A DNA stretch of 64,000 nt, taken from Deltaproteobacteria bacterium (GTDB lineage: Bacteria > Desulfobacterota > Desulfomonilia > Desulfomonilales > Desulfomonilaceae). The translations under genes were made by a program, and so were the position numbers. Shown one piece after another: positions 28,836-46,239 of the stretch. Every line of letters starts with the position of its first letter. Positions within the stretch are counted from its first letter, which is position 1. Location of the stretch: assembly GCA_023474025.1 (NCBI GenBank), contig JAMCYH010000130.1:62001-126000 (forward strand), read 5' to 3'. The notes under the pieces were generated by a model, which saw only the letters and a list, made by a program, of their open reading frames with translations, ran no database searches and was not told the origin of the DNA.

Positions 28836-29047
28836 TCAGCATTCCGGCAGGTCTTCATACAGGACGTTCGCAGTTTCTTCGAACATAGAATCGGTCATGT
28901 CCAGCTTGGCCATCAACAAGACCATGGCTAAATTCAAGATCAGCTTTGGTCATAAGGGGAAAGTCTCAGGAAGCGTTGCTCAAGGGCAAATGGGTCTACT
29001 TCGCGGACCACCTCTTTAAATGCCCTGAACAGGTTATCGATCTTCAT
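28836..29047 (-). pseudogene. Frameshifted paralogue of the 70-residue protein at 29264
   Basis: From the ATG at 29047 (GGGAGG upstream) the translation MKIDNLFRAFKEVVREVDPF...RLSPYDQS stops early at a TGA. In the next frame the sequence continues LILNLAMVLLMAKLDMTDSMFEETANVLYEDLPEC and ends at 28838. The joined product aligns residue for residue with the intact gene at 29264-29476 (KLILSVAAVLMMARPDMADL...EDIPEC). The region is 212 bases against 213 in the intact copy, and one missing A in the CAAAG stretch explains it. Either a real recent inactivation or a sequencing error in a short A-run. Confidence 0.75.
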
Positions 29048-29091
29048 TTTCAACCTCCCTTTGCTTGTGATATTCGCATTATCATCCCGAT

Positions 29092-29117
29092 ATGTGTCAA
29101 ATGGGGACGCACGTTAT
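29092..29117 (+). repeat. Dispersed repeat copy A (ATGTGTCAAATGGGGACGCA...)
   Basis: The first 20 bases recur exactly, in reverse orientation, at 46152-46171; the part GGGAC(G/A)CACGTTAT recurs near 41916. It is followed here by an A/T-rich stretch and GGGGTGCGCC near 29145, resembling a degenerate second arm. Located in the 216-base gap between the two 70-residue paralogues. Confidence 0.6.
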
Positions 29118-29263
29118 AAAAATTTTTAAAAAATTATTGAAAAAGGGGTGCGCCATTCATGATGTTTTTGCAGAGACCCTAGATTTTTAGAACTGTCGTG
29201 CTCTACAAAAATGCTATGCAGCCTTTGTTCGGACCACTTCGCATTGACTTTATTAATCATTCC

Positions 29264-29476
29264 TCAGCATTCCGGAATATCTTCGTTATCGAAGTCCACC
29301 GATCGATCTAATGCCAAATCGGCCATGTCTGGTCTTGCCATCATCAGAACCGCTGCGACACTGAGAATCAACTTCTGGTCATCTTCTGGAAGATTGAGGA
29401 ATCTTTGCTGGAGTATGAATGGATGAATTTCCTGGACTACGTCCAGAGATGCCTTGAATAGATTTTTGATCTTCAT
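29264..29476 (-). CDS. Small hypothetical protein, 70 residues (paralogue pair)
   Basis: ATG at 29476 with AAGGAGG six bases upstream. Helical, acidic at the C-terminus: MKIKNLFKASLDVVQEIHPF then QQRFLNLPEDDQKLILSVAAVLMMARPDMADLALDR and the terminal EDIPEC. The hydrophobic middle (LILSVAAVLMM) is amphipathic rather than a clear membrane helix. A frameshifted sister copy lies just downstream (28836-29047) with the same ribosome-binding context, so the pair arose by duplication. No family recognised; position next to the defence-like operon may be chance. Confidence 0.7.
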   Translation of the reverse strand: MKIKNLFKASLDVVQEIHPFILQQRFLNLPEDDQKLILSVAAVLMMARPDMADLALDRSVDFDNEDIPEC

Positions 29477-29728
29477 TATCAACCTCCTTTTGCTTCAGCT
29501 TGATCTCTCGGTTTGAAGGCAAACTGGTTAGGTCAATTTGCAGAGTCGGGCTCAGGGATACACTGTGTCCACGGTATATGGACCATTCTTGTTCCCCTGC
29601 TGGCATGTGAAAAGTTGGCGATTGTTCAGAAGCTAGGTGTTAACTCACTTGTGAGATTACAGACGCTCTCTGTCTAATTTTTGCCGACATTGCGGTTATG
29701 ATGAAAATTGATCAATCATCGTAATCAT

Positions 29729-29828: not shown

Positions 29829-30695
29829 ATCAATTTATATTATTGTTGTTTTCGACAATTTTCAGGCCAATATGAAAACTATTTGCATGGAAATAGCGCG
29901 GCTATCACCTGAGCTTCCGGTGCCCGAAACCCTAAATCCAGAGTGTCTAGCTGGGACATAATAACCGAGCGCGCTTGGTCGATAGACTTCCTGTAGCAAT
30001 TCAGGTCCTCTGATGGTTGGGAAGGTTGCCGCATAAAATCTTTTCTCACAGGAAGCCCGTTCAAGAAAGTTAGTATCTCCCAATCCATCATAAGCTTTGA
30101 TTCTTCTACTGGCTCTCCTATCTTAACGCCGGCCACTACGGCAGGCTTTACGAAATCGCTGGTTACACGGTCTCTGATTCGAAGCACCACCAAAGGAAAC
30201 AAAAGAAATTCGTTAGCCAAAATAGCTACAGTAGCCAAACTTTCTCTGGAAATTTCAACTGCCTTGTCAAAAACCCTGTGGCCTATTCCAAGAAGTCGCT
30301 CTGGTGATTCTTTTCTGGCCACTTCCCTGTCGAACGTCATGTTCTCATATCTAGATCTTATCGCTGGCTCACCTTTCCCCCAATTATCAGGTGTCTTGAA
30401 ACTGATGCCCGATTCTGACGAAATCAATTTCCTTCCATTCAATGACAAGGTTGTTTCAAAGAACTGCGCGAGATCTTTCAGCTCAACTTTAGGAAGACGT
30501 TTTGAAAAATCCCTAAAGTCAAATTTGCTAACATTTCCAACCAAAAGTCTTACTGCGTCCAAAGCGTCTTGCCCCCCGAGTTTTCCCGTTTGATGGTCAA
30601 ACCAGTCCTGAATCTTGTCTTTGGGCACTGTTGGGCCTTGTGAGAATAGATCATTAAAAAAATTGGGAGATGTCATTCCCAGTACAAGCTGAAGC
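29829..30695. repeat. Tandem direct repeat, copy 1 (867 bases)
   Basis: This block and 30696-31562 read identically wherever compared, and they abut without spacer. The two bases AT are shared at the junction. The unit covers the 3'-terminal ~272 codons of the helicase gene plus ~50 bases after its stop. Copy 1 is the extra, downstream one relative to the direction of the gene. Confidence 0.9.
29879..30695 (-). pseudogene. Duplicated 3' end of the SNF2 helicase gene
   Basis: Encodes the same ~272 C-terminal residues (MLQLVLGMTSPNFFNDLF ... VIAALFPCK) as the intact helicase gene, then its own copy of the stop codon. It lies after the stop of the real gene, so it can only be translated by re-initiation; the open frame from 30700 does start with ATG-like codons but has no ribosome-binding site. 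Probably untranslated remnant of a tandem duplication. It contains no ATPase motifs. Confidence 0.85.
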
Positions 30696-31562
30696 ATCAA
30701 TTTATATTATTGTTGTTTTCGACAATTTTCAGGCCAATATGAAAACTATTTGCATGGAAATAGCGCGGCTATCACCTGAGCTTCCGGTGCCCGAAACCCT
30801 AAATCCAGAGTGTCTAGCTGGGACATAATAACCGAGCGCGCTTGGTCGATAGACTTCCTGTAGCAATTCAGGTCCTCTGATGGTTGGGAAGGTTGCCGCA
30901 TAAAATCTTTTCTCACAGGAAGCCCGTTCAAGAAAGTTAGTATCTCCCAATCCATCATAAGCTTTGATTCTTCTACTGGCTCTCCTATCTTAACGCCGGC
31001 CACTACGGCAGGCTTTACGAAATCGCTGGTTACACGGTCTCTGATTCGAAGCACCACCAAAGGAAACAAAAGAAATTCGTTAGCCAAAATAGCTACAGTA
31101 GCCAAACTTTCTCTGGAAATTTCAACTGCCTTGTCAAAAACCCTGTGGCCTATTCCAAGAAGTCGCTCTGGTGATTCTTTTCTGGCCACTTCCCTGTCGA
31201 ACGTCATGTTCTCATATCTAGATCTTATCGCTGGCTCACCTTTCCCCCAATTATCAGGTGTCTTGAAACTGATGCCCGATTCTGACGAAATCAATTTCCT
31301 TCCATTCAATGACAAGGTTGTTTCAAAGAACTGCGCGAGATCTTTCAGCTCAACTTTAGGAAGACGTTTTGAAAAATCCCTAAAGTCAAATTTGCTAACA
31401 TTTCCAACCAAAAGTCTTACTGCGTCCAAAGCGTCTTGCCCCCCGAGTTTTCCCGTTTGATGGTCAAACCAGTCCTGAATCTTGTCTTTGGGCACTGTTG
31501 GGCCTTGTGAGAATAGATCATTAAAAAAATTGGGAGATGTCATTCCCAGTACAAGCTGAAGC
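30696..31562. repeat. Tandem direct repeat, copy 2 (867 bases), inside the helicase gene
   Basis: Second unit of the 867-base tandem duplication, forming the actual 3' part of the helicase coding sequence and its stop at 30746. 867 is a multiple of three, but because each unit contains a stop codon the duplication does not lengthen the protein. Confidence 0.9.
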
Positions 31563-33466
31563 ATGTCTTCAGGCTCTTCCATGACAGCAGCGAGCGCCTT
31601 ATTAATCAGGGCAAGCTTTTCATTCAGTTTATCCCAAATCATTGATTCTACCGTATCATCGTTGCGGAGTGTCACAACTTCTACCAATCTTTTTTGTCCG
31701 TAACGGTTCAGGCGTCCTACCCTTTGGTGGAGTCGCATGGGATTCCAGGGCAGATCAACATGGATTAACGTATAGCAATTTTCCTGAAGGTCTATCCCCT
31801 CTCCACCGGCCTCGGTAGAAACAAGAAAACGAGCCCCTCCTCGGTTAAATGATCTAGCTGCGTCATGGCGGTCCGCAAAGAAAGACTTAATTTTCCCGTC
31901 AGGCATTGTAACGCCGTCTGCCCTTGCATCGCCATTGATGAATGTTACGCTGTTTTCTCCATATTTCTCCATTAGGGCTGACATGAGCAGGGATTGAGTG
32001 GCCTTATATTCTGTAAAAAATAATATTGATCTGCCGGAAAAATCACTTTCTACCAACTCAACAATTTTGCTGATCTTGGTTTCTTTCACTATATTGTTGG
32101 CCACATCAAGTAATTGGGTAAGGGCCGTTTCCTCATGGGCCATAAGGCTAATCGCTGATGAAAGATCGAATATAGTTTCTTCAAGACTGGCAATCTCATC
32201 ACCCACACCATCGGCCTGCATCTCTCTGTAACGTTCGACTTGCCTGTTTAACTCCTGAATCTGAAAGCGTCGACTCTGTATGCCGGCAAGTCGGTTGTTG
32301 ATTGCACGTCGTATAGCCGCAACAGAACTCGAGGCTAGCTTTTGCATGGCAATGAGCACTAGGGTAGCTGTTCGCTGATCAGATACGGACAGATTGGCTG
32401 CATAGGCCCGGCCTCGAATAATGAAATCACTCAGCATGTCATAAAATTGTCTTTCGGCCTCGGAGTAAGTATAGGTGCTGGATTTGACGACATGTTCCTG
32501 AAAAATGCGTCGTCCGGCCATATCGGTGACATTACACTTGTTATTTCGTATCATTACACTTGGTAATTTGGCGAGTTGCTCCTCGAACGAATTGTCCGCA
32601 TCAAAAAGGTCTGGTCGAAGGAGTTGCAGGAGAGCCAGGAAACCATAGTTTTTGCCCCTATGTGGGGTCCCGGTAAAAAAGATCAGCGAAGATCCATGGC
32701 TTCTTTCCCGGATATCTCTCACTAACTGATAGCCCAGTGTCACCCCTTCTTTCTCGTGCGCATTAAGATGGTGCGCTTCGTCCACCAGGATCATATCCCA
32801 CGGCTCACTTTCAATGAGTCTCTGTCTTCTTTCTTGCAGTTTCTTGGGACTTTTTTCTTTGGTCCCCATTCGCAAGGTCTGGATTGAGGCCACGACCTGA
32901 TTGTGGGTCTGCCAAAAGTCGGTCCTAGCCGTGTCTAGTTCGGGAAGATAGGGTGTGAGTCGAATATCAAACATGGTTCTCAAGCGATATTGCCACTGGT
33001 CTACTAGTGAAGCAGGACACAATACGAGTAGCCTTTTGACCTTACGAGAGACCAGCAAAGGGGTTAGTATGAGACCCGCTTCAATTGTTTTTCCGAGGCC
33101 GACATCGTCTGCCACCATCCAGTTCGTGGGCCATTGTCGGTTTACTTGACGGCATACCCACAACTGATGCGGAAGCAACTCTATCTTTGACCTTGCGAAA
33201 ACCCCCCAAGCGTCGTTTATTGAAACTATGGCTTCGGCCTGAAGTTTGTTGATTACTTCTAACGGGGTATCCCATTCAGGCCTCAGCAGATCTTCATCAA
33301 TTGAAGCAATAGCTTCCAATTCATCGGCTAAGCATTCGTGAATACCGGAGTCGAACCTCACCACTACAGTCTGATCTGTTGCGACAATTACAGACCCCAT
33401 GCCGTGCTGATGGTGCCTTACCTTTTTGCCTGCTGATAACAGACCTGCTTCCAAATTCAAAGCCAT
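30746..33466 (-). CDS. SNF2-family helicase/translocase (RapA-like), partner of the giant ATPase
   Basis: 906 residues from the ATG at 33466 (AGGGAGA upstream; an earlier TTG/ATG-type start at 33505 is possible). N-terminal small beta domain (residues ~8-50, HHQHGMGSVIVATDQTVVVRF), then a SNF2 ATPase: motif Q-like PHQLWVCRQV, Walker A DDVGLGKT at 120-127, DEAH in ILVDEAHHLN near 240, TGTPHRG, and a C-terminal helicase lobe with STEAGGEGIDLQ and HQRVGRLNRYGQ. The last ~270 residues are an unassigned domain. Such enzymes move along double-stranded DNA. The gene overlaps the stop of the giant sacsin-like gene by ten bases, so both proteins are probably made together. Its 3' end is tandemly duplicated downstream. 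Confidence 0.92.
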   Translation of the reverse strand: MALNLEAGLLSAGKKVRHHQHGMGSVIVATDQTVVVRFDSGIHECLADELEAIASIDEDLLRPEWDTPLEVINKLQAEAIVSINDAWGVFARSKIELLPHQLWVCRQVNRQWPTNWMVADDVGLGKTIEAGLILTPLLVSRKVKRLLVLCPASLVDQWQYRLRTMFDIRLTPYLPELDTARTDFWQTHNQVVASIQTLRMGTKEKSPKKLQERRQRLIESEPWDMILVDEAHHLNAHEKEGVTLGYQLVRDIRERSHGSSLIFFTGTPHRGKNYGFLALLQLLRPDLFDADNSFEEQLAKLPSVMIRNNKCNVTDMAGRRIFQEHVVKSSTYTYSEAERQFYDMLSDFIIRGRAYAANLSVSDQRTATLVLIAMQKLASSSVAAIRRAINNRLAGIQSRRFQIQELNRQVERYREMQADGVGDEIASLEETIFDLSSAISLMAHEETALTQLLDVANNIVKETKISKIVELVESDFSGRSILFFTEYKATQSLLMSALMEKYGENSVTFINGDARADGVTMPDGKIKSFFADRHDAARSFNRGGARFLVSTEAGGEGIDLQENCYTLIHVDLPWNPMRLHQRVGRLNRYGQKRLVEVVTLRNDDTVESMIWDKLNEKLALINKALAAVMEEPEDMLQLVLGMTSPNFFNDLFSQGPTVPKDKIQDWFDHQTGKLGGQDALDAVRLLVGNVSKFDFRDFSKRLPKVELKDLAQFFETTLSLNGRKLISSESGISFKTPDNWGKGEPAIRSRYENMTFDREVARKESPERLLGIGHRVFDKAVEISRESLATVAILANEFLLFPLVVLRIRDRVTSDFVKPAVVAGVKIGEPVEESKLMMDWEILTFLNGLPVRKDFMRQPSQPSEDLNCYRKSIDQARSVIMSQLDTLDLGFRAPEAQVIAALFPCK

Positions 33467-36400
33467 TTCTCCCTTGAAAAAAGTTCTAGATCTGCAATCG
33501 TGCAACCTAGAAATCTTTTCTGGAGAGATGCTTCCTCTGCAACCAACTGCAACGGAATGTCAAAGCTGTTGCAAAACAAAGCTTTTTCTGCCCCGACATT
33601 TCGACACAGGAATCTAAAAACTTCCTTCGAGAATTCAGAATGATTAAGCTTTTCCTCGGTATCTATCCAACGAAGAATTTTAAAGAGTTTTCTTAGTCCG
33701 GATGTGGGCATGTAACAATAAGAATAGCCACCTTTATGGGTTAGGATTTTGTTACGGTAGAGTTCGCGGAGAATGAAATGTACTCCAATCCCAAGCATAG
33801 GCCTGAGCGGAGGAGCATCAAGGCCACTACCTCTGAAAAAATCACTAGCATTTGGCGCAATGATCTGATCTAGCGAAAAACTATCATGATTAATCTTGTT
33901 TATAGCCATCAAGCAGTCGATGTATTTTTCAAGACGGCTACCGATAAAGAAGGCGCTAAGAAGTTGACGCATCGAATGGTAGTGTTCGATGTCATATGTC
34001 TGCTTATCGATGTGCCGATCAACCTCTTCAAGCCAACCAGTACGATTTTGATCTGATTCTGCAAGCAAGCTGAGCCAGGTTTTTCGTTCACATATTCTAA
34101 CGAACTCCTTGTTGCTCTCGTGACCTCCAACAAAACCCATAGTGTGAAGACAGCCTAAAAGGAAAATTTTTAGCCACTCCTTTTTATTGTATGAGCCATT
34201 TTCAGGATCTGCATTTAAATCGGGGAACTTTCCATCCGGATAAACAGAATTCTCAAACTCTTGTACATGACGATTTATATCATTGGCCCACCAATGGTAG
34301 ATCTTGTTCAATGCTGTAGATGGTGTTTGGGGATAGACTGCATCATAATCGGTTGAATTATGATTTTTCGGAGTTTCACTATCCTCACAAATGTAATAAT
34401 GATTACCTAAAATATTGTTCCAATCGCTTACAGATCGGTAGATTTTCTGCTGATACCTCGTTTCCAGTGCATTGTAGGCTGGATCTTTTTCAATATTGTC
34501 AAGCCATGTCCCTGCCTTGTTGTCAAGGATGAGATCCCTAATTTTAGGACCGCTTGCACCGTCCACGAGGTATTTCAAGAAGGCTGTTTTTTGTTCATGG
34601 CTTGAGGCTTTAAGTCCCCACTCGGTCATTAAGTTGATATCTTCATTCATTCTTAATCGACATGCATTGAAGAACTCAATCGCATTGAGACCATATTCCG
34701 GATCTAACACACTGTCTTCCGGAGCGAATGCTGCCTTCATGCTTTCTTCCACATTTGACTCATGCAATATTAGTAGTTTTTTGCAGGACACTAAGTTTCC
34801 CGCCAATGAGCAAAATTTGAGATTTCCTAAATATTCTGCTAGGTACTCATGTTCTTGTTCGTTCGCTTTCAACTGCTTCAGAAAACGTCTGTTAATGGTT
34901 CGCCCCAGCCTCTCGGCTGACTCAGGCGATACATAACCAGATTCACCAAGTTCACATTTTATTGCAATGACAATGTCAACATGCTCCCAATCAAAATCTC
35001 TAGCGACTAGATTTTTTAGGGGTATTCTTATTCTAGATTCTGAAACCAGCTCTCCGGTGCCGAACGGGAAATGTTGCCTAAAAGATTTCCACTTTGATAT
35101 TTCCGTGAAAATTTGGGGATCTGTATCTAATACCCCTCGAACATACCATTTGATATCGCCCAATTTTGTTAACCTGGCATAATCACCGTGCAAGCCTGAT
35201 GGCAACGCCTTTGATGTCTCCAACAAATACAACATGCCTCGGCCCATTCCCCAAAAAATATCTTTACACAAATCCAAACTATTGCCGAAAACTTCTATGG
35301 CCATTTTCTTTCCTAGCAATATCCAGAAGGAGTTCCAAAATTGGTATGAAGTCGCGGCATCTGCCAGCCCTAGATCATGTCGAAAACATTCCCAATCTTC
35401 GGTGCTCGACGTATGGAGGCTTTTCAACGCTTGCCCAAAGGCTTGGCCAAGTTCCATAACGAGCTGCGAGTGTCTTTCTGATGGTTTTGCTAACTGCGCT
35501 CTCCCTACATCAAGTTCAAAGTTGCTATTGATGGCTATCCCAATGGGAGGTTCATCCATTGGCGCCAGGTTCCAAAAGGTTGGAATGAAATCTGGCAGCT
35601 CACAAACACCTATTGATCCGAGGTTTAATAGGAGGGCCCCAAAATCGTCCGACCTTAGCACGATCGCTTTTTTACATTCTTTCTCTTCATCAGAGGGGAA
35701 ATGGATGTTCCCAATAAAAGCGCCTTGACATTGGCCTATTCTCGTCTCATCCCACGACAACGTAGTTGGTTCGAACTGCTCAATTTGTTTTACGTGACAG
35801 CGCTTTATTTGACGTGAGAAAACGAGTAAAACTGGAAGCATTTGGTAAAATCTCTTGATGACATCTTTGGGACGTTGCTCAAGTTTTTCTTCAAAACCAA
35901 TTTCAAATATTGTCCCGTCTTCAACGTCCAGTTGATCTCTCAAAATCTTTTTCAGTCTAGATCGGTCTTGTAGGTCAAGTCGTTTCGGGTACAATCCACC
36001 AACTACTTCAAAACCAAGGGATCCACTCAAAACTTTGGGATTCTTGGAAACGAGAAAAACACTCTTAAAGCCAAGCCCGAATTTTCCGGTAACCGGAGTT
36101 TCGGAAATTCCTTTGTCGGAATATGCCAATACAAGCATTTTCTCCAAGTCACGATTGTATCCAAGCTCTTTGCCTCGTTGGGACGTGAACAGCCCCTTTC
36201 TGAATTGGTTTATTAGTCTTCCAAAATGAATGAACACTATTCTGGACTGATCCCAAATCAGATGAATACAATTTACATTAGAGTGTGCAGTGCCTCCGGT
36301 CATTTTTATTAGTTCCGTTGAAGTGTCATCTGAGTTCTGGAAAAGTTCAAAAGGAATTGATTTAAAATCGTATTGAAATTCTTTTCCTATTTTTTGTCTT

Positions 36401-39400
36401 ACGGCCTGAAGCAACTCCTCCTGAACCTCTGGACGGTTTTCAAGGTCGTTGCGTAAAGACGCCATGAGTTGTCCTTGTTGTTGAATTACATCCAACTGTC
36501 TCGGTTTTTGGTCTGCGGATGCTTCAATCTTAATCTCAGCTCCGCGATACTCCAATTCTTCCCATTTCCCCAAAAGTTGCTTCAATGTAGTAAGGCGCTT
36601 CCCCCCGAGTTGCCTGAAATAAAGCATCGAATGCTGTACTATCATTTCTTGGGCTACTACCAGATCTAGCTGTTCCGTGTCTCCCCATTCTTCCCATAAG
36701 TTGTCTAGGTTGTCAGGCACGGCGCTGGCGAAGGTGAGCATATACCGCGTAGATTCGAGCAAAATCTCGCTGAGCCGATTCTTGGTAAAATTCCCCGGAC
36801 TAATTGGTCTTACGGTCACAGTATAACGTTTTCTAATGCTATCGAACTTCTTGGACTCTCCCACAAAGATGCTATTGTAGGATTTACTCAAGTTGGCTTT
36901 AAACGTCCTTCCAAGAAGGTTTTGCACTGAACAGAGGTTGTTGCCTGAAATTTGGTAAATTGCGTAAAATTGGTTATAAATTATATGGCGTAATCTTCTC
37001 TTGATTTTTTCTTGGTCCAAGCCCTGTCCAGTAAACCCCCACTTAATTCTATCTCTTATTAAATCGAGATTTTCATGTCCTAAGAAGTTTTTAGCCATTG
37101 ATTCCAATGTGTCGTCATCCCCCAAGAAACAGAGTAAAGCACCAATGCGCCTTGACGAGACGTAGCCTTCGAATTGCGAAAAGTAGCTACGGAGGTCATC
37201 TGAACCCATTCTGGATTGTCCATGTTCATTTTCAATGGGGAAAAAGTTGGTCGGTTGATTGATCTCGACAAACTCTTTCACAATGTCAGCTTGGGTTTTG
37301 TTGAGCAAGTGGGAAGTATCTATTCCTTCCGCATTTATGCACAGCCGATCTGTTGATTCCCAGTTTCCTAATGCATTGAGGAGCCTAATGCCAGATAAGT
37401 CTTGAAGAGTGATATTTTCAGATTCTACCAGTAGTCTAAGATACCAGTTGAACACTTCAGCGACTTTATCCTTGTCATTCCTTCCAACTTCTTCATGACG
37501 AGTAGTTATAAAATCTAGAAGTTTTTTTATCTTTAATTTAGAAAGCGGCCGAGCCAATTTGCTTAACACACGCTCCGTTATAGTGACGGCCTTGGAGTTA
37601 GCATCCACGAGTGCCTTAAGAATAGAGCCTGTAGGGAGCAGCTCTTTTGGTGCCTTTCCAAAAACCAATAAAAAGTTGTTTAGAAAATCCGATCCCTTAA
37701 CCCGATCTCCTAAATTGCCTATCCAGTAATCTTGGGAATTTTGCAAACAGTCTCCCAGGATCATCATGGCTTGATCAGGCTCAGGTGCCAAATATCTTTT
37801 GACCCTCTGGAATGCCTGATGTTCAAGACATTTAGAATTTATTTCGTTTATGCCAAAAAAGCCTTCTTGCGAAGGGTTATCGGTTAAAATGATCCTTAAA
37901 TCCTCCTCAATACCATTTAGGAGGATCAACTGACTGGGCTTCTTAGGGCCGAGGCTAGTTGGAATCCAGGAAGTACGGCTACACGAGAAAATTAATTCAT
38001 CATCGGTAAGCCGAATGAGACGATTGCGGTCAAACGTCTGTAAACAATTCAATATGTCTTTCCAAAAAACCGAAGGACTATCTGATTCAAGTGCGGTCTT
38101 CAATGCTGTTTCAGAGTTCCAACCTTCGAGAAACTTTTGGTAATAGATAGCCGCGTTTCCATCGGTAGGCGCTTCAACTACAGTGACCAAATTTTCAAGT
38201 TCTTTGGATGCCTTGTAATTAGGACATCGCAGATATGCCCGATCGGATTTTATTGAAGTCCTTCGCCCTTGGGAATCCAAATGAATAGGAAGTCTCCTGA
38301 AAAGTTCTTGATTATCCAAGTCTTTGAGAATCCTATTATAATCATCTTCTGTCGGCGCTAGTTCATTAATCCATGACAGGTCAGTCATCTTCCCAAGGAG
38401 GTCTTCTTCAAGATTTGAGGTGAGAACCTTCACTTTCAGACGGCTTCCTTGATTTTGGTTGATCTCATTTCCTAGAGTCGGGTCAATTACAAACCATTTA
38501 TCCTGGCAGCGTTTCAGAGCTTCCTGTGTTAGCCTCGCGCAAAAATTGTCATCTTCAGCGTTCGCATGAAACAACAAATAAGTATTGGTATCGTCATGAT
38601 GCTGAGTGTTTCCATGAAGTAGATACCTAACAGCTCTCAGATAATCGAGGCCAAACGTTTCGCTGAATTCATTGATGAGTTTCTTTAGTAAGTCAATCCT
38701 GTCCCGTGATCTTGCCAACTTAGGACGACTGTTGAGAATCTCTATACAAAAATCCTTGTTAAAATGAGGGGCTGGACAGTCGAAAAGAAGCTTAAACGGT
38801 TCAATGTTTCCCTTTTTGTTTAAAGTATAGAACTTAAGGTCAGGAATTGCTTTTTGCAGGTGATCAGGGAAGTTTGCGCTGGCTGAATACCCCTTTTCAA
38901 TCAGTTGTTTTTTTTCAAACAAATCAGCAAGTTCTCGCCACGAAACTATCCGCTTTTTAGTGGTACCAAGCTCATCAAGACCGAACAGTTTATAATCTCC
39001 TGTCTTTCCTAACAGATCTTGCCTGCCAGCATCAGTTGCTTCAATTACGGCGAGAGCTGTGCGAGTCATGGCCAACGGATCGACACTTTGATCGTGACCT
39101 CTGCTCAATTTTCTTAAGATTGTATCTGCCACTGACAAGCTAAGCTTCCCGGCCTCGACTTCCTTCGGCAGCATGGCTTTGGGGAATAAAAACTGATTAA
39201 GTTCATTATCCGGTATGAATTTGATTAGCTTCTCAACGATTTCCCAGGTGCAGTCGAGCGTGACAATAGATACTCTTCCGAGCCTTTTCAAGAGGTTGAA
39301 AAAACGCTCATTCCGCTTTTTGACGGCATCTGGGTTATGGTCACGTATTAGAAGCATCAAGGAGTGTACGACAGTAGTTGAACACGCCTTTTGATCTTTT

Positions 39401-41076
39401 AATTCCAGCTTCCCAAAAGATCTCTCAACAAAATTAACAAGGTAATCCATACCATCCTGAGATGTTAGGCATTCAAGATTCAAATTGTTGACCAACTGTT
39501 TTATGAGAGCAACATTCCATTTGCAGGGGTGGTTCTTTGTCAGCTTGGGTTGCCCGTCGAAAACAAATATATTCTTAAGACTCGCTTCCGATAGGTTAGG
39601 AAATAATTGGAACGGAAGTTCAGGACAATCCACTGGCGGCGCAGGTAATACAAAATATTCGTGCGATGTCCCAAATAGCCCCCATTTCCCATAATCCTTA
39701 CTTTGATCGCAAACTCGCTTTAGCCACTGTGATTGGCCGCAGATGTAATTCCTATTATCTCTGAAAAATTCGGACTTCTGAATGGCATCGGTAAGTCTGT
39801 TTATGTCCGTTGCGGGTAACTGTGTTTCTTCGACAAATTTGTGAAGAGAAGGCAAAATCAGTGGATAAACTCCGAGTTGGTCTATTTGACTGTTCCACAC
39901 TAGATCGGGCCTGTCCTTCTCAGATTCACTGGGCTTTAGCGGCGAAACCCTGGCAGAATCAAGAAAGTAATAGCCGTGGAGTAACAGACTAAAATCTAAA
40001 TTGCCCCTGCAATTAATGGTCTCTTCAGGTTTAGTCAAAGGGAGAAACACAGCTTTTTGTATTGTCAGCTTTCCTAGGTCACCGAATGTGGATTCGTTGA
40101 GAGAAAATATAGTTGCGCAGTGTGGCTCACCTTTTTCAGGTTCATCTTCCGAGGTCGCTGCATTTGCTTTGGTGGGCCACGCTTTATTTTGTTTTATTTC
40201 TCTGAATATCGGGTCGTCTAAGAGTATCTCATAGCCGAAAAACTTTTTTTCAAAATTTCTTGAATTGACCAAATTGGACCCAATCGCAGTCGCTCTGACA
40301 GGCAATTGGGTGTTTACTACTCCGATGTTGGGGAACTTGGTGGGTACCAAATCTTTCGATGGTAATTTGATCGTACTTTTCATTTCAGGCAGAAGCTTCT
40401 TCGAGTTCCAGCCCCACGTAGTTACTTCTCTCAACGATTTCAGGAGCGGGGAGAATTGAAACATTTCCTGTTCTTGTATGCTTAGAAACAGTTCATCGAT
40501 AGTACTAAAATTAGGCTTAATCGGTTTTTTGCACTTTAAATGCTCTTCATTCCTCAACGGTATCAATACGCAAAACCATTTTTCATACTCATCTACCCAA
40601 AAAGAAAGGCGTTTTTTGATCATTTGTTCAGGAATTTTAATAGATTCCCAATCGTCGTGGGTACCTGAGTCTTTCCAGGGGTTGAGCAATTCGACGAAAA
40701 ACTTTCCATTGCGGGCCTCCTGATTGTCGGAAACGGCATAAAAAAAAGCCTCACAGAAATGAAAAATACTTTTCATTCCAAAGCCGAATCTCCCGATAGA
40801 ACCTTCCTCACTTCCTTTTGCGCTAAGCCCAAGATGGCGAATAGACTTTTCGTCTTTTTTGGAAAACGGACCATCATTTAATGCTATAAAAACAGGGCCT
40901 TGCAAGAGTGGATGTGGATTGTCTTCCCAATCTGATATCCACCCTAGATGCAGATGTGTTGCCCGAGCGTCGTCAGCGTTTTGAATAAATTCTTTAAAGA
41001 TAGATTGGGGAGGGTAATAATTGTCGCCTAAAAGGTGTCGAATTGTCGCTACGATGTCCGCTATGAAACCTGCCAT
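33457..41076 (-). CDS. Giant sacsin-like protein with two GHKL/Hsp90-type ATPase modules
   Basis: 2,539 residues. Module 1 at residues ~1-150: N-box KEFIQNADDARAT (E29, N33, D36), G1 motif LNDGPF (D68, G69), G2 motif IGRFGFGMKSIFHF (G95-G100). These match the N-terminal ATPase of eukaryotic sacsin and its bacterial relatives. Module 2 at ~1,550-1,750: N-box FELFQNSDD near 1,579 and G2 GKFGLGFKSVF near 1,662, while the G1 aspartate-glycine is altered (HFGRL). The remaining ~2,000 residues contain no domain I can name. Each GHKL module should bind ATP and dimerise like Hsp90/MutL. The coupled SNF2 helicase suggests a DNA-directed, probably anti-phage role (inference). No signal or membrane segments. 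No nuclease motif was found in it. Confidence 0.9.
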   Translation of the reverse strand: MAGFIADIVATIRHLLGDNYYPPQSIFKEFIQNADDARATHLHLGWISDWEDNPHPLLQGPVFIALNDGPFSKKDEKSIRHLGLSAKGSEEGSIGRFGFGMKSIFHFCEAFFYAVSDNQEARNGKFFVELLNPWKDSGTHDDWESIKIPEQMIKKRLSFWVDEYEKWFCVLIPLRNEEHLKCKKPIKPNFSTIDELFLSIQEQEMFQFSPLLKSLREVTTWGWNSKKLLPEMKSTIKLPSKDLVPTKFPNIGVVNTQLPVRATAIGSNLVNSRNFEKKFFGYEILLDDPIFREIKQNKAWPTKANAATSEDEPEKGEPHCATIFSLNESTFGDLGKLTIQKAVFLPLTKPEETINCRGNLDFSLLLHGYYFLDSARVSPLKPSESEKDRPDLVWNSQIDQLGVYPLILPSLHKFVEETQLPATDINRLTDAIQKSEFFRDNRNYICGQSQWLKRVCDQSKDYGKWGLFGTSHEYFVLPAPPVDCPELPFQLFPNLSEASLKNIFVFDGQPKLTKNHPCKWNVALIKQLVNNLNLECLTSQDGMDYLVNFVERSFGKLELKDQKACSTTVVHSLMLLIRDHNPDAVKKRNERFFNLLKRLGRVSIVTLDCTWEIVEKLIKFIPDNELNQFLFPKAMLPKEVEAGKLSLSVADTILRKLSRGHDQSVDPLAMTRTALAVIEATDAGRQDLLGKTGDYKLFGLDELGTTKKRIVSWRELADLFEKKQLIEKGYSASANFPDHLQKAIPDLKFYTLNKKGNIEPFKLLFDCPAPHFNKDFCIEILNSRPKLARSRDRIDLLKKLINEFSETFGLDYLRAVRYLLHGNTQHHDDTNTYLLFHANAEDDNFCARLTQEALKRCQDKWFVIDPTLGNEINQNQGSRLKVKVLTSNLEEDLLGKMTDLSWINELAPTEDDYNRILKDLDNQELFRRLPIHLDSQGRRTSIKSDRAYLRCPNYKASKELENLVTVVEAPTDGNAAIYYQKFLEGWNSETALKTALESDSPSVFWKDILNCLQTFDRNRLIRLTDDELIFSCSRTSWIPTSLGPKKPSQLILLNGIEEDLRIILTDNPSQEGFFGINEINSKCLEHQAFQRVKRYLAPEPDQAMMILGDCLQNSQDYWIGNLGDRVKGSDFLNNFLLVFGKAPKELLPTGSILKALVDANSKAVTITERVLSKLARPLSKLKIKKLLDFITTRHEEVGRNDKDKVAEVFNWYLRLLVESENITLQDLSGIRLLNALGNWESTDRLCINAEGIDTSHLLNKTQADIVKEFVEINQPTNFFPIENEHGQSRMGSDDLRSYFSQFEGYVSSRRIGALLCFLGDDDTLESMAKNFLGHENLDLIRDRIKWGFTGQGLDQEKIKRRLRHIIYNQFYAIYQISGNNLCSVQNLLGRTFKANLSKSYNSIFVGESKKFDSIRKRYTVTVRPISPGNFTKNRLSEILLESTRYMLTFASAVPDNLDNLWEEWGDTEQLDLVVAQEMIVQHSMLYFRQLGGKRLTTLKQLLGKWEELEYRGAEIKIEASADQKPRQLDVIQQQGQLMASLRNDLENRPEVQEELLQAVRQKIGKEFQYDFKSIPFELFQNSDDTSTELIKMTGGTAHSNVNCIHLIWDQSRIVFIHFGRLINQFRKGLFTSQRGKELGYNRDLEKMLVLAYSDKGISETPVTGKFGLGFKSVFLVSKNPKVLSGSLGFEVVGGLYPKRLDLQDRSRLKKILRDQLDVEDGTIFEIGFEEKLEQRPKDVIKRFYQMLPVLLVFSRQIKRCHVKQIEQFEPTTLSWDETRIGQCQGAFIGNIHFPSDEEKECKKAIVLRSDDFGALLLNLGSIGVCELPDFIPTFWNLAPMDEPPIGIAINSNFELDVGRAQLAKPSERHSQLVMELGQAFGQALKSLHTSSTEDWECFRHDLGLADAATSYQFWNSFWILLGKKMAIEVFGNSLDLCKDIFWGMGRGMLYLLETSKALPSGLHGDYARLTKLGDIKWYVRGVLDTDPQIFTEISKWKSFRQHFPFGTGELVSESRIRIPLKNLVARDFDWEHVDIVIAIKCELGESGYVSPESAERLGRTINRRFLKQLKANEQEHEYLAEYLGNLKFCSLAGNLVSCKKLLILHESNVEESMKAAFAPEDSVLDPEYGLNAIEFFNACRLRMNEDINLMTEWGLKASSHEQKTAFLKYLVDGASGPKIRDLILDNKAGTWLDNIEKDPAYNALETRYQQKIYRSVSDWNNILGNHYYICEDSETPKNHNSTDYDAVYPQTPSTALNKIYHWWANDINRHVQEFENSVYPDGKFPDLNADPENGSYNKKEWLKIFLLGCLHTMGFVGGHESNKEFVRICERKTWLSLLAESDQNRTGWLEEVDRHIDKQTYDIEHYHSMRQLLSAFFIGSRLEKYIDCLMAINKINHDSFSLDQIIAPNASDFFRGSGLDAPPLRPMLGIGVHFILRELYRNKILTHKGGYSYCYMPTSGLRKLFKILRWIDTEEKLNHSEFSKEVFRFLCRNVGAEKALFCNSFDIPLQLVAEEASLQKRFLGCTIADLELFSREKWL

Positions 41077-42259: not shown

Positions 42260-42457
42260 GTGCCGAGAAAAATATGTGACCTAGTAGAGGAACTAAAGAA
42301 GGCCGGATTTGTTGACAGAGGAGGGAAAGGAAGTCACAGGAATTTTACTCACCCTAATGTCAGAAAGCCAGTTACTATTTCAGGAAAAATGGGCGATGAT
42401 GCGCTGAACTATCAAGAACGAGCGGTCCGCCTCGCTATTCAGGAGTCCAGGAAATGA
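42260..42457 (+). CDS. hicA: HicA-type mRNA-interferase toxin
   Basis: 65 residues, GTG start with AGGA about six bases upstream. Double-stranded-RNA-binding-like HicA fold: KICDLVEELKKAGFVDRGGKGSH, with the catalytic histidine at residue 26 in the conserved GGKGSHRNFTHP context. HicA cleaves mRNA independently of the ribosome when not held by HicB. The gene overlaps the following hicB start by four bases (ATGA). Location beside the defence-like operon fits the common clustering of toxin-antitoxin pairs in such islands. Confidence 0.9.
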   Translation: MPRKICDLVEELKKAGFVDRGGKGSHRNFTHPNVRKPVTISGKMGDDALNYQERAVRLAIQESRK

Positions 42458-42693
42458 GCAAAGGAGACAGATATCTCAAAATTGTTGAGTGGTCTGATGA
42501 GGACGGATGTTTTGTAGGCAGTTGCCCTGAATTGTTTTATGGAGGTTGTCATGGCTCAGACGCCAAGGCGGTCTTTGCCGAGCTATGCGACATAATTGAA
42601 GAAACCATAATGATTTATGAACAGGATAGTAAACCGTTACCCACCGCTATGTCCGGCCGGGATTTTGTTAATTTGATGGCAAAAATCGCGTAA
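42454..42693 (+). CDS. hicB: HicB-type antitoxin
   Basis: 79 residues overlapping hicA by four bases. Begins MSKGDRYLKIVEWSDEDGCF and has the partial RNase-H-like HicB core (FVGSCPELFYGGCHGSDAKAVFAELCDIIEE). HicB proteins usually carry a C-terminal DNA-binding domain; here the short tail (LPTAMSGRDFVNLMAKIA) is only a possible remnant of a ribbon-helix-helix. It neutralises HicA and probably represses the pair. Confidence 0.9.
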   Translation: MSKGDRYLKIVEWSDEDGCFVGSCPELFYGGCHGSDAKAVFAELCDIIEETIMIYEQDSKPLPTAMSGRDFVNLMAKIA

Positions 42694-42761: not shown

Positions 42762-43721
42762 CTAGGTGTACTGATCCGCGGCTTTAAGAAGCTCTGTCCT
42801 GATCCGTTTCCTGAGGGAATCAGGTTCAATTACCTGCGCTGCGGAACCGAAGCCCATTATCCATGAGATGATTTCGTAATTGATCGGGACTTCCACAGAG
42901 ATTTCTACCCCGCCATCGGGAAGGTCACGAATCTCCTGAGTGGGATGCCATATACGTTCCCTGACAATATGAGCGGCTCCAGGGGTGAGCCGAAACCTGA
43001 CCTTTTCGGGTGAGCCTCTCATCACTCGAAAGGCTGACTGAAGATAATCTTCGAGGCTGAAATTTTCAGGCATGACGAAAGATTCATCAAGTACCGTGAA
43101 GCTCTTGATACGATCCATCGCAAAGGTGCGTATAGCGTCACGTACGTGACAGTGGGCGATCAGATAAAAAACTCCGTTCATCACCCATACCTGATAGGGA
43201 TCAACTTTCCGGGTGGTTTGGCGTCCGGTTGAAACCGCCTGATAAAGTATCTCAACACTCTTTCTTGAAGCGGTTGCTTCGCTCAGCTCCTTTACAATTT
43301 CTTTAACTCTGGAAAAATCCTTTGTAGGGCCCAGATCAATCTTGATGCCTCCTGAAATGTTCTGAAGGTAATCGAGAGTCTCTGGCGGTAATGCAGCCTT
43401 TACCTTCTGGAAAAGTGTTTCGATGCTGTCGCTGAAGATGGTTCCATCGAACACGCTCAGCAGCTCGCGGCTGGTGTGCAGGGCCATCAATTCAGTGGCC
43501 GTCAACGGAACGGGGAAACCTTTCCTGAAGTTGTCGAGCAGCTTCCAGTAGGAATTCTTCCCGTCCTTGTCAGTGTATATTGGGTAGCCAGCTTCTTGGA
43601 TGGCTTCCAGATCACGGTACACGGTCCTTAGTGCGGCTTTCAGTTCTTTGGCGAGATCAGCTCCGCTGATACCGGTTCGGCGAGTCTCCATGATCTGGAT
43701 GATTTTCCACTGACGGGCCAT
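42762..43721 (-). CDS. WYL-domain transcriptional regulator
   Basis: About 319 residues from the ATG at 43721 (GGAG five bases upstream); alternative starts lie at 43736 and 43763. N-terminal helix-turn-helix of the DeoR/HTH_11 type (GADLAKELKAALRTVYRDLEAIQEAGYPI), then a WYL domain (~130-230; VSILYQAVS-like start, QVWVMNGVFYLIAHC, RTFAMDRIKSF) and a WCX C-terminal domain ending VIEPDSLRKRIRTEL. WYL regulators sense nucleic-acid or nucleotide ligands and frequently control phage-defence operons. The nearest target is the NERD-helicase gene upstream on the same strand, 119 bases away. Confidence 0.9.
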   Translation of the reverse strand: MARQWKIIQIMETRRTGISGADLAKELKAALRTVYRDLEAIQEAGYPIYTDKDGKNSYWKLLDNFRKGFPVPLTATELMALHTSRELLSVFDGTIFSDSIETLFQKVKAALPPETLDYLQNISGGIKIDLGPTKDFSRVKEIVKELSEATASRKSVEILYQAVSTGRQTTRKVDPYQVWVMNGVFYLIAHCHVRDAIRTFAMDRIKSFTVLDESFVMPENFSLEDYLQSAFRVMRGSPEKVRFRLTPGAAHIVRERIWHPTQEIRDLPDGGVEISVEVPINYEIISWIMGFGSAAQVIEPDSLRKRIRTELLKAADQYT

Positions 43722-43839
43722 CTGGGCTCCACGCATATTGTGTTCTTTCCTTTCAGAAGCCAAAACTGAGTCTTGTGGCGAAAACCTCTAATATTTAAAG
43801 AAAACTGGAATAATCCCAACACTTGCCTAAATCGACATC

Positions 43840-45621
43840 TCAAGACTTCAAAATTCCTGTCACTCGCTTCTCAAGCGTCTTGGGAAGTATTAAGAATAGC
43901 CTGATAATTGCTCGTGACATAGCCACATAGAGAAGCTCTTTGGACCGATCCGAGTCGAGGTCATCTATGCCCACAATAATAACAATGGGGCTTTCAAGAC
44001 CTTTGAAAGAAGAAATGGTGGAGAATTTGACCGTATCCTTGTCTTTGCCGTTAGATTCCTTAGCCGTAATATCGCAAATCTTGAATCTAAATTTGTTTAG
44101 GGGTGTATCAGGAAAAGTGTTTTTAAAGGTGCGTCGAGACAATATTGAAATGCTCTCTCTTTGAATGCCCTCGCTTGCAAGTCCCCGAACTATTTGTCCC
44201 AATAGTGGGGGTATCTCCGGTTCATTGCCAAAATATTTGTAATCGACTGGAGGACCTGTAACTGATGACGTCAAGAATGGCGGCACATCAAATCCCACCA
44301 GTGTGCATGTGTCCTTACCAATATTTCTGGTATTTCGACAGTTGACCATAAGTGAAAACTGGGTGTGATAAGGGGATCTCTTTTCAATTTCAACTTGCAT
44401 TTCTTCTGGATTCATGTCTGAAAAGATTTTTTGGCCCTGAAGATCACCAAAGAAAGCCCAGCGTCCACTGCCCAATCCCCCTTTAAGAAATCCATCCATA
44501 ACGTCAAGATATCTGGGACGCATTAGATCCTGAGCCTCGTCAACCACTAAAACATCGAACAGGGACTCCTTACACTCAGACAATGCCAATTCGGCATAAT
44601 CAGGAAAAATCTCCTTAAAAAGTCGATCTTTCTGGTTTGAATCGTTTTCAGAAAAGACCTTCTTTTCTATTTCCTCGAATTCTTGCTTTAGTGGAGATTT
44701 TAAAACAACTTGCTCCATATAATGATGGAAGTGATCAACCGTGATTCTGTCAGAGAATTCGGATAGTTCGGAGTTAAGTTTGTTTGCCAATAGCCTGTTG
44801 AAGCACAACAAAAGAACTTTATCCCCTTTTCTGGCCTCTCTTTTTGCAAATTCAACCGCCAACACCGTTTTTCCTGTCCCGGCAGCTCCGGTAAAAAAGC
44901 TTCGCCGATTCCCTCGCAAACTTTCCAAACATCTGATCTGCTCAGTTGTAAATCTTAAGATTTCATCCTGAAGTTCTCGCGCGATGGATCCTTTTTTTAT
45001 GGAAAATTCAAAATCACCCCGAAGATATTGCACTAAAGATGTGATGGCCCTTTTTGAAGGACGTGATTTTGTCTCATTATACCAGGGGTGAATTTTCATT
45101 TTCTCATGGGTTTGTTTGGCGAGATTATTTAGAAAAACGCTTATAGGTCTTTCATTGTCCCTGATATTATAAATTTGCCATGGTTCAAAGTCGGGACCAG
45201 TCCTTTTGAATTCACATTGGGGGAAAATGACTCCCCATCCATACAGCAACTTGTTCAAAGAATGGGAATCCCCGAAGTGTTCCCTTAAAGAATTTCTCAA
45301 TGAGTGCATAGCATTACTGACCTGGCGTATAGGCCCTAGCGTATTTTGAACAACTGCGCCGTATTTGTTTCTGTATTCCCAGACTCCGTCTTTTCTGGAC
45401 ACCCGCCCAGACTTGACCTCAAGGCAGAATATTCCTGTCTTGGGGATCAACAGTAGGAAATCGATCTCACCATAGACCGTAGAAACGTGTCTGGATATTC
45501 CAAGGGAATGCAGACAAGTCCAGTCTTGAGTCTCCGGGTCATCCTTCAGCTTTTCAAAAACGTTCCGTTCTCCAGAACTCGAGACATCTTCAGAAAACAC
45601 AGGCGGAATCATATATGTCAT
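43840..45621 (-). CDS. NERD-nuclease / superfamily 1 helicase fusion
   Basis: 593 residues; GGGGG lies seven bases before the ATG. N-terminal NERD nuclease-like domain at ~15-130 with the restriction-like residues in YGEIDFLLLIPKTG and CLEVKSGRV. Then a UvrD/DUF2075-type helicase: P-loop FTGAAGTGKTVLA near 245, Walker B VLVVDEAQDLMRP near 370, and at the end SSFKGLESPIVIIVGI and YVAMSRAI, the UvrD_C_2 signature. Probably binds and degrades foreign nucleic acid; nuclease-helicase fusions of this general kind are known as single-gene phage-defence proteins. Likely co-regulated with the WYL gene downstream. Confidence 0.9.
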   Translation of the reverse strand: MTYMIPPVFSEDVSSSGERNVFEKLKDDPETQDWTCLHSLGISRHVSTVYGEIDFLLLIPKTGIFCLEVKSGRVSRKDGVWEYRNKYGAVVQNTLGPIRQVSNAMHSLRNSLREHFGDSHSLNKLLYGWGVIFPQCEFKRTGPDFEPWQIYNIRDNERPISVFLNNLAKQTHEKMKIHPWYNETKSRPSKRAITSLVQYLRGDFEFSIKKGSIARELQDEILRFTTEQIRCLESLRGNRRSFFTGAAGTGKTVLAVEFAKREARKGDKVLLLCFNRLLANKLNSELSEFSDRITVDHFHHYMEQVVLKSPLKQEFEEIEKKVFSENDSNQKDRLFKEIFPDYAELALSECKESLFDVLVVDEAQDLMRPRYLDVMDGFLKGGLGSGRWAFFGDLQGQKIFSDMNPEEMQVEIEKRSPYHTQFSLMVNCRNTRNIGKDTCTLVGFDVPPFLTSSVTGPPVDYKYFGNEPEIPPLLGQIVRGLASEGIQRESISILSRRTFKNTFPDTPLNKFRFKICDITAKESNGKDKDTVKFSTISSFKGLESPIVIIVGIDDLDSDRSKELLYVAMSRAIIRLFLILPKTLEKRVTGILKS

Positions 45622-46114: not shown

Positions 46115-46171
46115 GGGGACACAGATAAAAAATTTTTATGAATTGATTACATGCGTCCCCATTTGACACAT
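46115..46171 (+). repeat. Dispersed repeat copy C, palindromic (GGGGACACA...GCGTCCCC)
   Basis: GGGGACaCA (46115-46123) pairs with TGcGTCCCC (46152-46160) around an A/T-rich centre. The right flank 46152-46171, read on the minus strand, is identical to 20 bases of copy A at 29092. The element thus has terminal inverted repeats and an A/T-rich core like a small REP/MITE-type element. Confidence 0.6.
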
Positions 46172-46239
46172 ATTTTTACTATCATTGTGAAGCATGAGCG
46201 AAAAATCCGCCGCAAAGGCATGGAAAGAGAGGCAAGGCT

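Follow-up and report, generated by a model that had tools for sequence, protein, structure and literature searches.

A giant sacsin-like ATPase and a SNF2 helicase as a nearly obligate gene pair with a probable role in anti-phage or anti-mobile-element defence

A stretch of 64,000 nucleotides from a Deltaproteobacteria bacterium of the family Desulfomonilaceae (assembly GCA_023474025.1, contig JAMCYH010000130.1, positions 62,001 to 126,000; here called the window) contains two adjacent genes on the minus strand, one encoding a giant ATPase with two GHKL modules and the other a RapA/DrmD-like SNF2 helicase. We find that the two are nearly obligate partners forming one functional unit, and that this unit is quite probably an anti-phage or anti-mobile-element system. 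The source assembly is 4.2 Mb and 86% complete, with the window on its contig C123. A clean, near-obligate two-gene unit recurring in many phyla provides a handle on the role of giant GHKL proteins of the sacsin and MORC types, and its cultured carriers include Deinococcus, Trichormus variabilis, Marinobacterium and Amphritea.

Conservation and distribution of the gene pair

When genome contigs were searched with the helicase alone, 45 loci were recovered with best-segment identities of 42–53%, after which the values drop to 34% or less. One of these (L055) has only about 30 nt upstream of the helicase frame and is excluded from the count of 44 used here. The giant lies directly upstream of the helicase in 42 of the 44, whether complete, cut by the end of a contig or broken into frames, and the other two keep a remnant of it, consisting of the C-terminus only (L060) or the start of module 1 only (L046). 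Loci of outgroup SNF2 helicases are without a giant in all of 35 cases except two from Verrucomicrobia (L086 and L095), where shorter and diverged GHKL proteins precede the helicase, module 1 of L086 being a separate 485-aa frame. In many loci 4 nt are common to the end of the giant frame and the start of the helicase frame, and the tree distances of the two proteins are correlated (Mantel r 0.895), with none of 2000 permutations giving so high a value (maximum 0.30). Because of the adjacency with its two remnants, the stop/start overlaps and the correlated trees, we regard the pair as a single unit. A preliminary description, drawn up from the letters of the window and its open reading frames (ORFs), had made its proposal dependent beforehand on adjacency in related genomes, and the adjacency is indeed conserved.

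Carriers belong to at least 11 phyla, among them Pseudomonadota, Thermodesulfobacteriota, Planctomycetota, Chloroflexota, Cyanobacteriota, Deinococcota, Gemmatimonadota, Verrucomicrobiota, Spirochaetota, Lentisphaerota and Acidobacteriota. Within the source phylum the giant is present in 3 of 297 genomes, with the helicase adjoining it in all three, and the pair is absent from the one congener searched. Seven plasmid records carry the giant, five of them together with the helicase; the C-terminal part of the giant was not found in the other two. On a contig from a viral collection an integrase-type gene adjoins the pair. Sacsin-type GHKL matches (E up to 1e-8) occur in 33 genomes of the phylum, and since single frames of more than 2,500 aa are found only in the source genome and in G069 (in G014 the broken giant occupies three frames), the giant forms a separate subset of the bacterial sacsin-like proteins.

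In cyanobacterial carriers the giant is split near residues 802–817, cleanly so in two Trichormus records. In two Chromatiaceae loci the giant and helicase genes are separated by about 700–900 nt that contain small ORFs (L044, 9334-9957; L045, 9167-9990). A Thiocystis bin (L046, 795-7487) has, in place of most of the giant, genes that when read by eye resemble those for a DNA methylase, a DUF1016-like protein and a restriction helicase. A further copy of the pair, decayed and with the gene order kept, is present in the source genome itself (contig C256, 23566-24785; L029, L004 and L011), comprising the giant N-terminus (54% identity) and the helicase C-terminus (65%), each with an in-frame TAG.

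The giant ATPase and the helicase

Both ORFs of the pair are intact. The giant gene (33457..41076, minus strand, 7.6 kb) encodes 2,539 aa with two modules that each consist of a GHKL and a middle part, and the helicase gene (30746..33466, minus strand) encodes 906 aa if it begins, as is most likely, with the ATG at 33466 rather than the upstream TTG at 33505. With the start taken in this way, and the TGA of the giant at 33457-33459, the genes overlap by 10 nt, as the preliminary description had it. The two GHKL modules that were also proposed there for the 2,539-codon gene are borne out by matches to Pfam SACS (4.1e-26; 92.7 bits against a curated cutoff of 32.8) and, in two stretches, to NCBIfam P_loop_sacsin (1.2e-29; 102.6 bits against a cutoff of 50), and by a profile comparison of module 1 with module 2 (E=1e-18 over 323 columns). 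Conservation is described below for an alignment of 31 full-length relatives with 18–29% identity to the window protein.

The N-terminal part of module 1 (40647..41076, minus strand; about residues 1-143) is invariant or nearly so, and contains an N-box (E29-xx-QN33-xx-D36), a sacsin-type G1 (N67-D-G-x-F71) and a G2 (G95-xx-G98-x-G100-x-K102), the invariant residues of the module including E29, Q32, N33, D36, K87, G95, G98, G100, K102 and R376. Its best sequence match is sacsin SR1 (4.9e-25), which is also the best match by fold (7.6e-9), followed by Hsp90, MORC2 and GyrB. The equivalences published for sacsin and Hsp90 comprise the catalytic Glu, an Asn for Hsp90 Asp79 and the distal catalytic Arg474, and the G1 of sacsin also has Asn (PMC9880540). 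By these equivalences the module 1 site is, as far as its residues tell, of the sacsin type (PMC9880540). From motif and spacing, R376 (39949..39951, minus strand, in HGYYFLDSAR) and R1859 of module 2 are the best candidates for distal arginines, and R376 would correspond to sacsin Arg474 and Hsp90 Arg380 (PMC9880540).

Module 2 (35500..36459, minus strand; about residues 1540-1859) is as conserved as module 1, and matches Hsp90/TRAP1 and GyrB/ParE by fold. Its motifs are E1577, N1581, D1584, H-F-G1619-R1620, TG1664-KFG1667-x-G1669-FK1671 and R1859, and the invariant residues include E1577, Q1580, N1581, D1584, G1619, R1620, N1623, K1655, T1663, G1664, G1667, G1669, K1671 and R1859. Its chief difference from module 1 is at G1, which reads H-[WF]-G-R-x-[IV]-N with almost no variation. 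The earlier statement that G1 is intact only in the first module thus stands roughly, with the correction that a canonical DxGxG is present in neither: module 1 has the sacsin-type NDGxF and module 2 this conserved motif. Because G1619, R1620 and N1623 are invariant, the G1 of module 2 looks like a specialised rather than a broken site, and because the catalytic positions of both modules are invariant we rule out module 2 as a degenerate relic. Judged by alignment, all three ATP sites, those of the two modules and that of the helicase, are conserved, and E29 and N33 of the giant and K126 of the helicase lie where the preliminary description had placed them.

The C-terminal helical part of the giant (33457..34479, minus strand; about residues 2200-2539) has no known domain; R2437-E2438 and D2506 are invariant within it, and it is kept also in the diverged Verrucomicrobia relatives. 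The roughly 640 residues that follow module 2 match no characterised domain of Pfam or NCBIfam, and no HEPN, DnaJ or Ubl domain was found in the giant. A repeat linking the inter-module scaffold with the C-terminal part was considered and is at best weak by profile comparison. Structure models were obtained for two pieces of the giant, with mean predicted local distance difference test (pLDDT) scores of 80 and 82 and predicted template modelling (pTM) scores of 0.55–0.60, two plasmid-record rows having been left out of the input; with pTM scores of this order the domain arrangement in the models is not to be trusted.

The helicase matches Pfam SNF2-rel_dom and Helicase_C, contains the motifs GLGKT, DEAH and QRVGRLNRYGQ, and has RapA as its closest solved relative by sequence (1.2e-46). 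The PADLOC model PDLC02634, labelled DrmD, matches it end to end (9.6e-280), but it falls far below the NCBIfam cutoffs for DrmD (284.8 against 610 bits, and 160.5 against 950 for a second model); the cutoffs for the RapA equivalog (160.6 against 576 bits) and for DpdE (180 against 500 bits) are also missed. For its last 260 residues there is no match to a characterised domain. As to the library itself, the 'DrmD' entry PDLC02634 of PADLOC-DB fits the helicase of the pair rather than DISARM DrmD, and the 'DrmA' entry PDLC02572 fits a SNF2 protein with end-to-end matches to DrmD models as well; both labels look unreliable. Since the DrmD label takes in helicases of a family that here is no part of DISARM, automatic annotation may miscall such loci.

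Interpretation and relation to known systems

A defence function is probably indicated by the sporadic presence of the pair, its carriage on plasmids, the integrase beside it on the viral-collection contig and the defence-type genes around it. Defence and integrase genes are frequent around the pair; across the loci the neighbours include DISARM, BREX-like, restriction-modification, McrBC, GmrSD, reverse transcriptase and integrase genes, and a sample of 109 flanking genes contained five integrases, three C5 methylases, two McrBC, two GmrSD and one BrxL. In G069 the pair is accompanied by PglZ-, methylase- and HerA-like genes, a retron-type reverse transcriptase and a Zac/PDC-M27-like locus.

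In gyrase, MutL, Hsp90 and MORC, the GHKL modules work as clamps and form dimers on ATP, so that the presence of two on one chain suggests an intramolecular clamp. In the mechanism that we propose, ATP binding would cause the two modules to close on each other around DNA or a DNA-bound protein complex, the clamp would load or activate the helicase, and the RapA-like motor would move on double-stranded DNA and displace bound complexes, thereby stripping, compacting or blocking the invading DNA. Replication or transcription would be blocked without any cutting, or the DNA would be passed on to host nucleases; since neither protein has a nuclease signature, blockade or silencing is favoured over cutting. 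The proposal of a clamp with a translocase draws on the GHKL clamp of Shedu (PMC12137116) and on the pairs of MORC/paraMORC ATPases with superfamily 2 (SF2) helicases (PMC2292703). We infer clamp closure, DNA as the substrate and the nuclease-free outcome, and it is from the folds that a clamp mechanism and a sensing of phage DNA are suggested. Taken as a whole, an ATP-gated clamp and double-stranded DNA translocase acting on invading DNA is a tentative scheme that we stop somewhat short of calling probable. The fuller statement, in which the pair is an immune system whose sacsin-built double-module giant clamps invading DNA while the SNF2 translocase silences it without cutting, as a prokaryotic counterpart of silencing by MORC and chromatin remodellers, is one that we think rather unlikely to hold in its entirety. 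If the pair does protect without a nuclease, it would represent a form of immunity by DNA silencing whose parts are related to MORC and to SNF2 remodellers.

Several observations weigh against this interpretation. The control set of outgroup SNF2 helicase loci, assessed by PADLOC counts, also carries restriction-modification and BREX genes, and the attempt to establish enrichment in defence islands therefore failed. The G1 of module 2 departs from known GHKL sites, nucleotide binding there being an assumption, and, as the models cover two pieces at the low pTM scores given above, a dimer of module 1 with module 2 is hypothetical. The C-terminal regions of both proteins, matching no characterised domain, could conceal an effector. 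Such an effector, leaving the pairing and the defence role as favoured but cutting like a restriction enzyme, is the main rival to a nuclease-free outcome; related loci of GHKL ATPases and helicases usually include a nuclease (PMC2292703), and D694, D706, D810 and D839 of the helicase are kept in 46–48 of 51 sequences. The conserved polar residues of the giant outside its GHKL modules are, however, mostly aromatic or Arg and contain no PD-(D/E)xK, HNH or HKD set, the helicase C-terminus has no conserved Lys or His, and no nuclease is among the listed fold matches. A hidden nuclease in the giant was rejected because its conserved residues form no catalytic set and no nuclease is among these fold matches, and a concealed effector in either protein seems to us unlikely. 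As far as folds and conserved residues were tested, no nuclease or methylase signature was found in the pair, in agreement with the preliminary description.

The pair might instead be a housekeeping or stress machine, in which an Hsp90/sacsin-like chaperone and a RapA-like motor act on stalled RNA polymerase or damaged DNA. RapA, to which the helicase is closest among solved proteins, serves as a motor in the recycling of RNA polymerase (PMC8501970), and sacsin, which module 1 resembles, has been studied as a chaperone (PMC9880540), but the sporadic distribution, the plasmid carriage, the decayed and disrupted copies and the defence and mobile neighbours make such a role quite improbable. Another explanation makes the pair an accessory or variant of DISARM, with the helicase as DrmD and the giant as an extra subunit, and has in its favour the RapA-like SNF2 helicase, the end-to-end match to PDLC02634 and the islands that are sometimes shared: in Trichormus the surroundings of the pair include drmC, a DUF1998 gene and drmA, and a true DrmD with DrmMI lies downstream of the pair in L042, with DrmD/DrmMI-type genes partly present in L076 and L070. 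Yet in L042 the true DrmD is present in addition to the pair, DISARM is not seen in most loci, the giant is no known DISARM part, and drmA, drmB and drmC are all absent from the window genes scanned around the pair; the DrmA-model matches in the source genome are SNF2-type proteins elsewhere or the helicase of the pair itself, and its DUF1998-type match is on another contig (C342). DISARM membership is ruled out by the NCBIfam cutoffs together with the absence of drmA/B/C beside the pair, and we regard an accessory or variant as very unlikely.

Restriction-like loci that couple GHKL ATPases with SF2 helicases have been on record since 2008 (Iyer et al., PMC2292703). The pair resembles these MORC/paraMORC loci in that a GHKL+S5 ATPase gene stands beside an SF2 helicase gene (SWI2/SNF2 in one group), as found in all but the two remnant loci, and in being widely transferred. 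MORC/paraMORC loci usually have a nuclease and often a methylase (PMC2292703), whereas the pair has neither within the unit nor as a recurrent associated family, and combines a sacsin-type double module of 2.5k residues with a RapA/DrmD-like helicase. The best sequence match of the giant is sacsin and not MORC, although MORC2 is among the fold matches. In eukaryotic sacsin, too, a single giant chain contains several Hsp90-like modules, with Asn at G1 and a distal Arg, but sacsin differs from the giant in its HEPN, DnaJ and Ubl domains, and the giant has a SNF2 partner encoded next door. TmtA of Tiamat shares with the giant an N-terminal sacsin-like GHKL domain; the TmtA models of PADLOC (1,300–1,780 positions) match the giant only over about residues 17-110, with weak matches in module 2, and no full-length match was found. 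Tiamat is a single-gene system. Type III Druantia (DruH-DruE; PMC13316683, PMC13192584) acts against phages and is like the pair in having two components, with a second protein that works with a helicase, but DruE has been described as a helicase-nuclease (PMC13192584) and no Druantia model is among the PADLOC matches listed for the pair. VcSduA, an anti-phage Shedu protein with an N-terminal GHKL ATPase of the clamp type, differs in having its nuclease in the GHKL chain and no helicase partner (PMC12137116).

No named system with both components was found in PADLOC, NCBIfam or Pfam, just as the preliminary description had reported no match, and none of the papers found in the open-access literature describes the pair. 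It is best filed under the conflict systems of GHKL ATPases with SF2 helicases, and not under DISARM or Tiamat. The impression of an undescribed system accordingly holds for the pair, which is unnamed, but not for its general type, which has been known since 2008 (PMC2292703), nor for the helicase family, which PADLOC files under DrmD.

Neighbouring genes and repeats

The HicAB, WYL and NERD-helicase genes reported earlier in this stretch are present, at 42260-42690 (plus strand), 42762-43763 and 43840-45621, respectively. HicA (GTG at 42260) is followed by HicB, both on the plus strand and divergent from the giant. No third gene is common to the loci, with no family present in more than five, and a conserved third gene as part of the unit was rejected because no family recurs.

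An exact repeat of 869 nt with a spacing of 867 nt (29829-30697 and 30696-31564) makes a tandem copy of the 3′ end of the helicase gene directly downstream of it, and with it a spurious ORF of 273 aa (29879-30700); the copy is either real and of very recent origin or an artefact of assembly. Also downstream of the helicase are two direct repeats of 120 nt that are 70% identical (28947-29066 and 29376-29495). An inverted repeat of 31 nt, 90% complementary (29090-29120 and 46143-46173), encloses the pair together with the HicAB, WYL and NERD-helicase genes; the 22-nt core, without mismatch at either end, has six copies in the genome at up to 3 mismatches, and the repeat may mark the limits of a mobile block or belong to a family of dispersed repeats.

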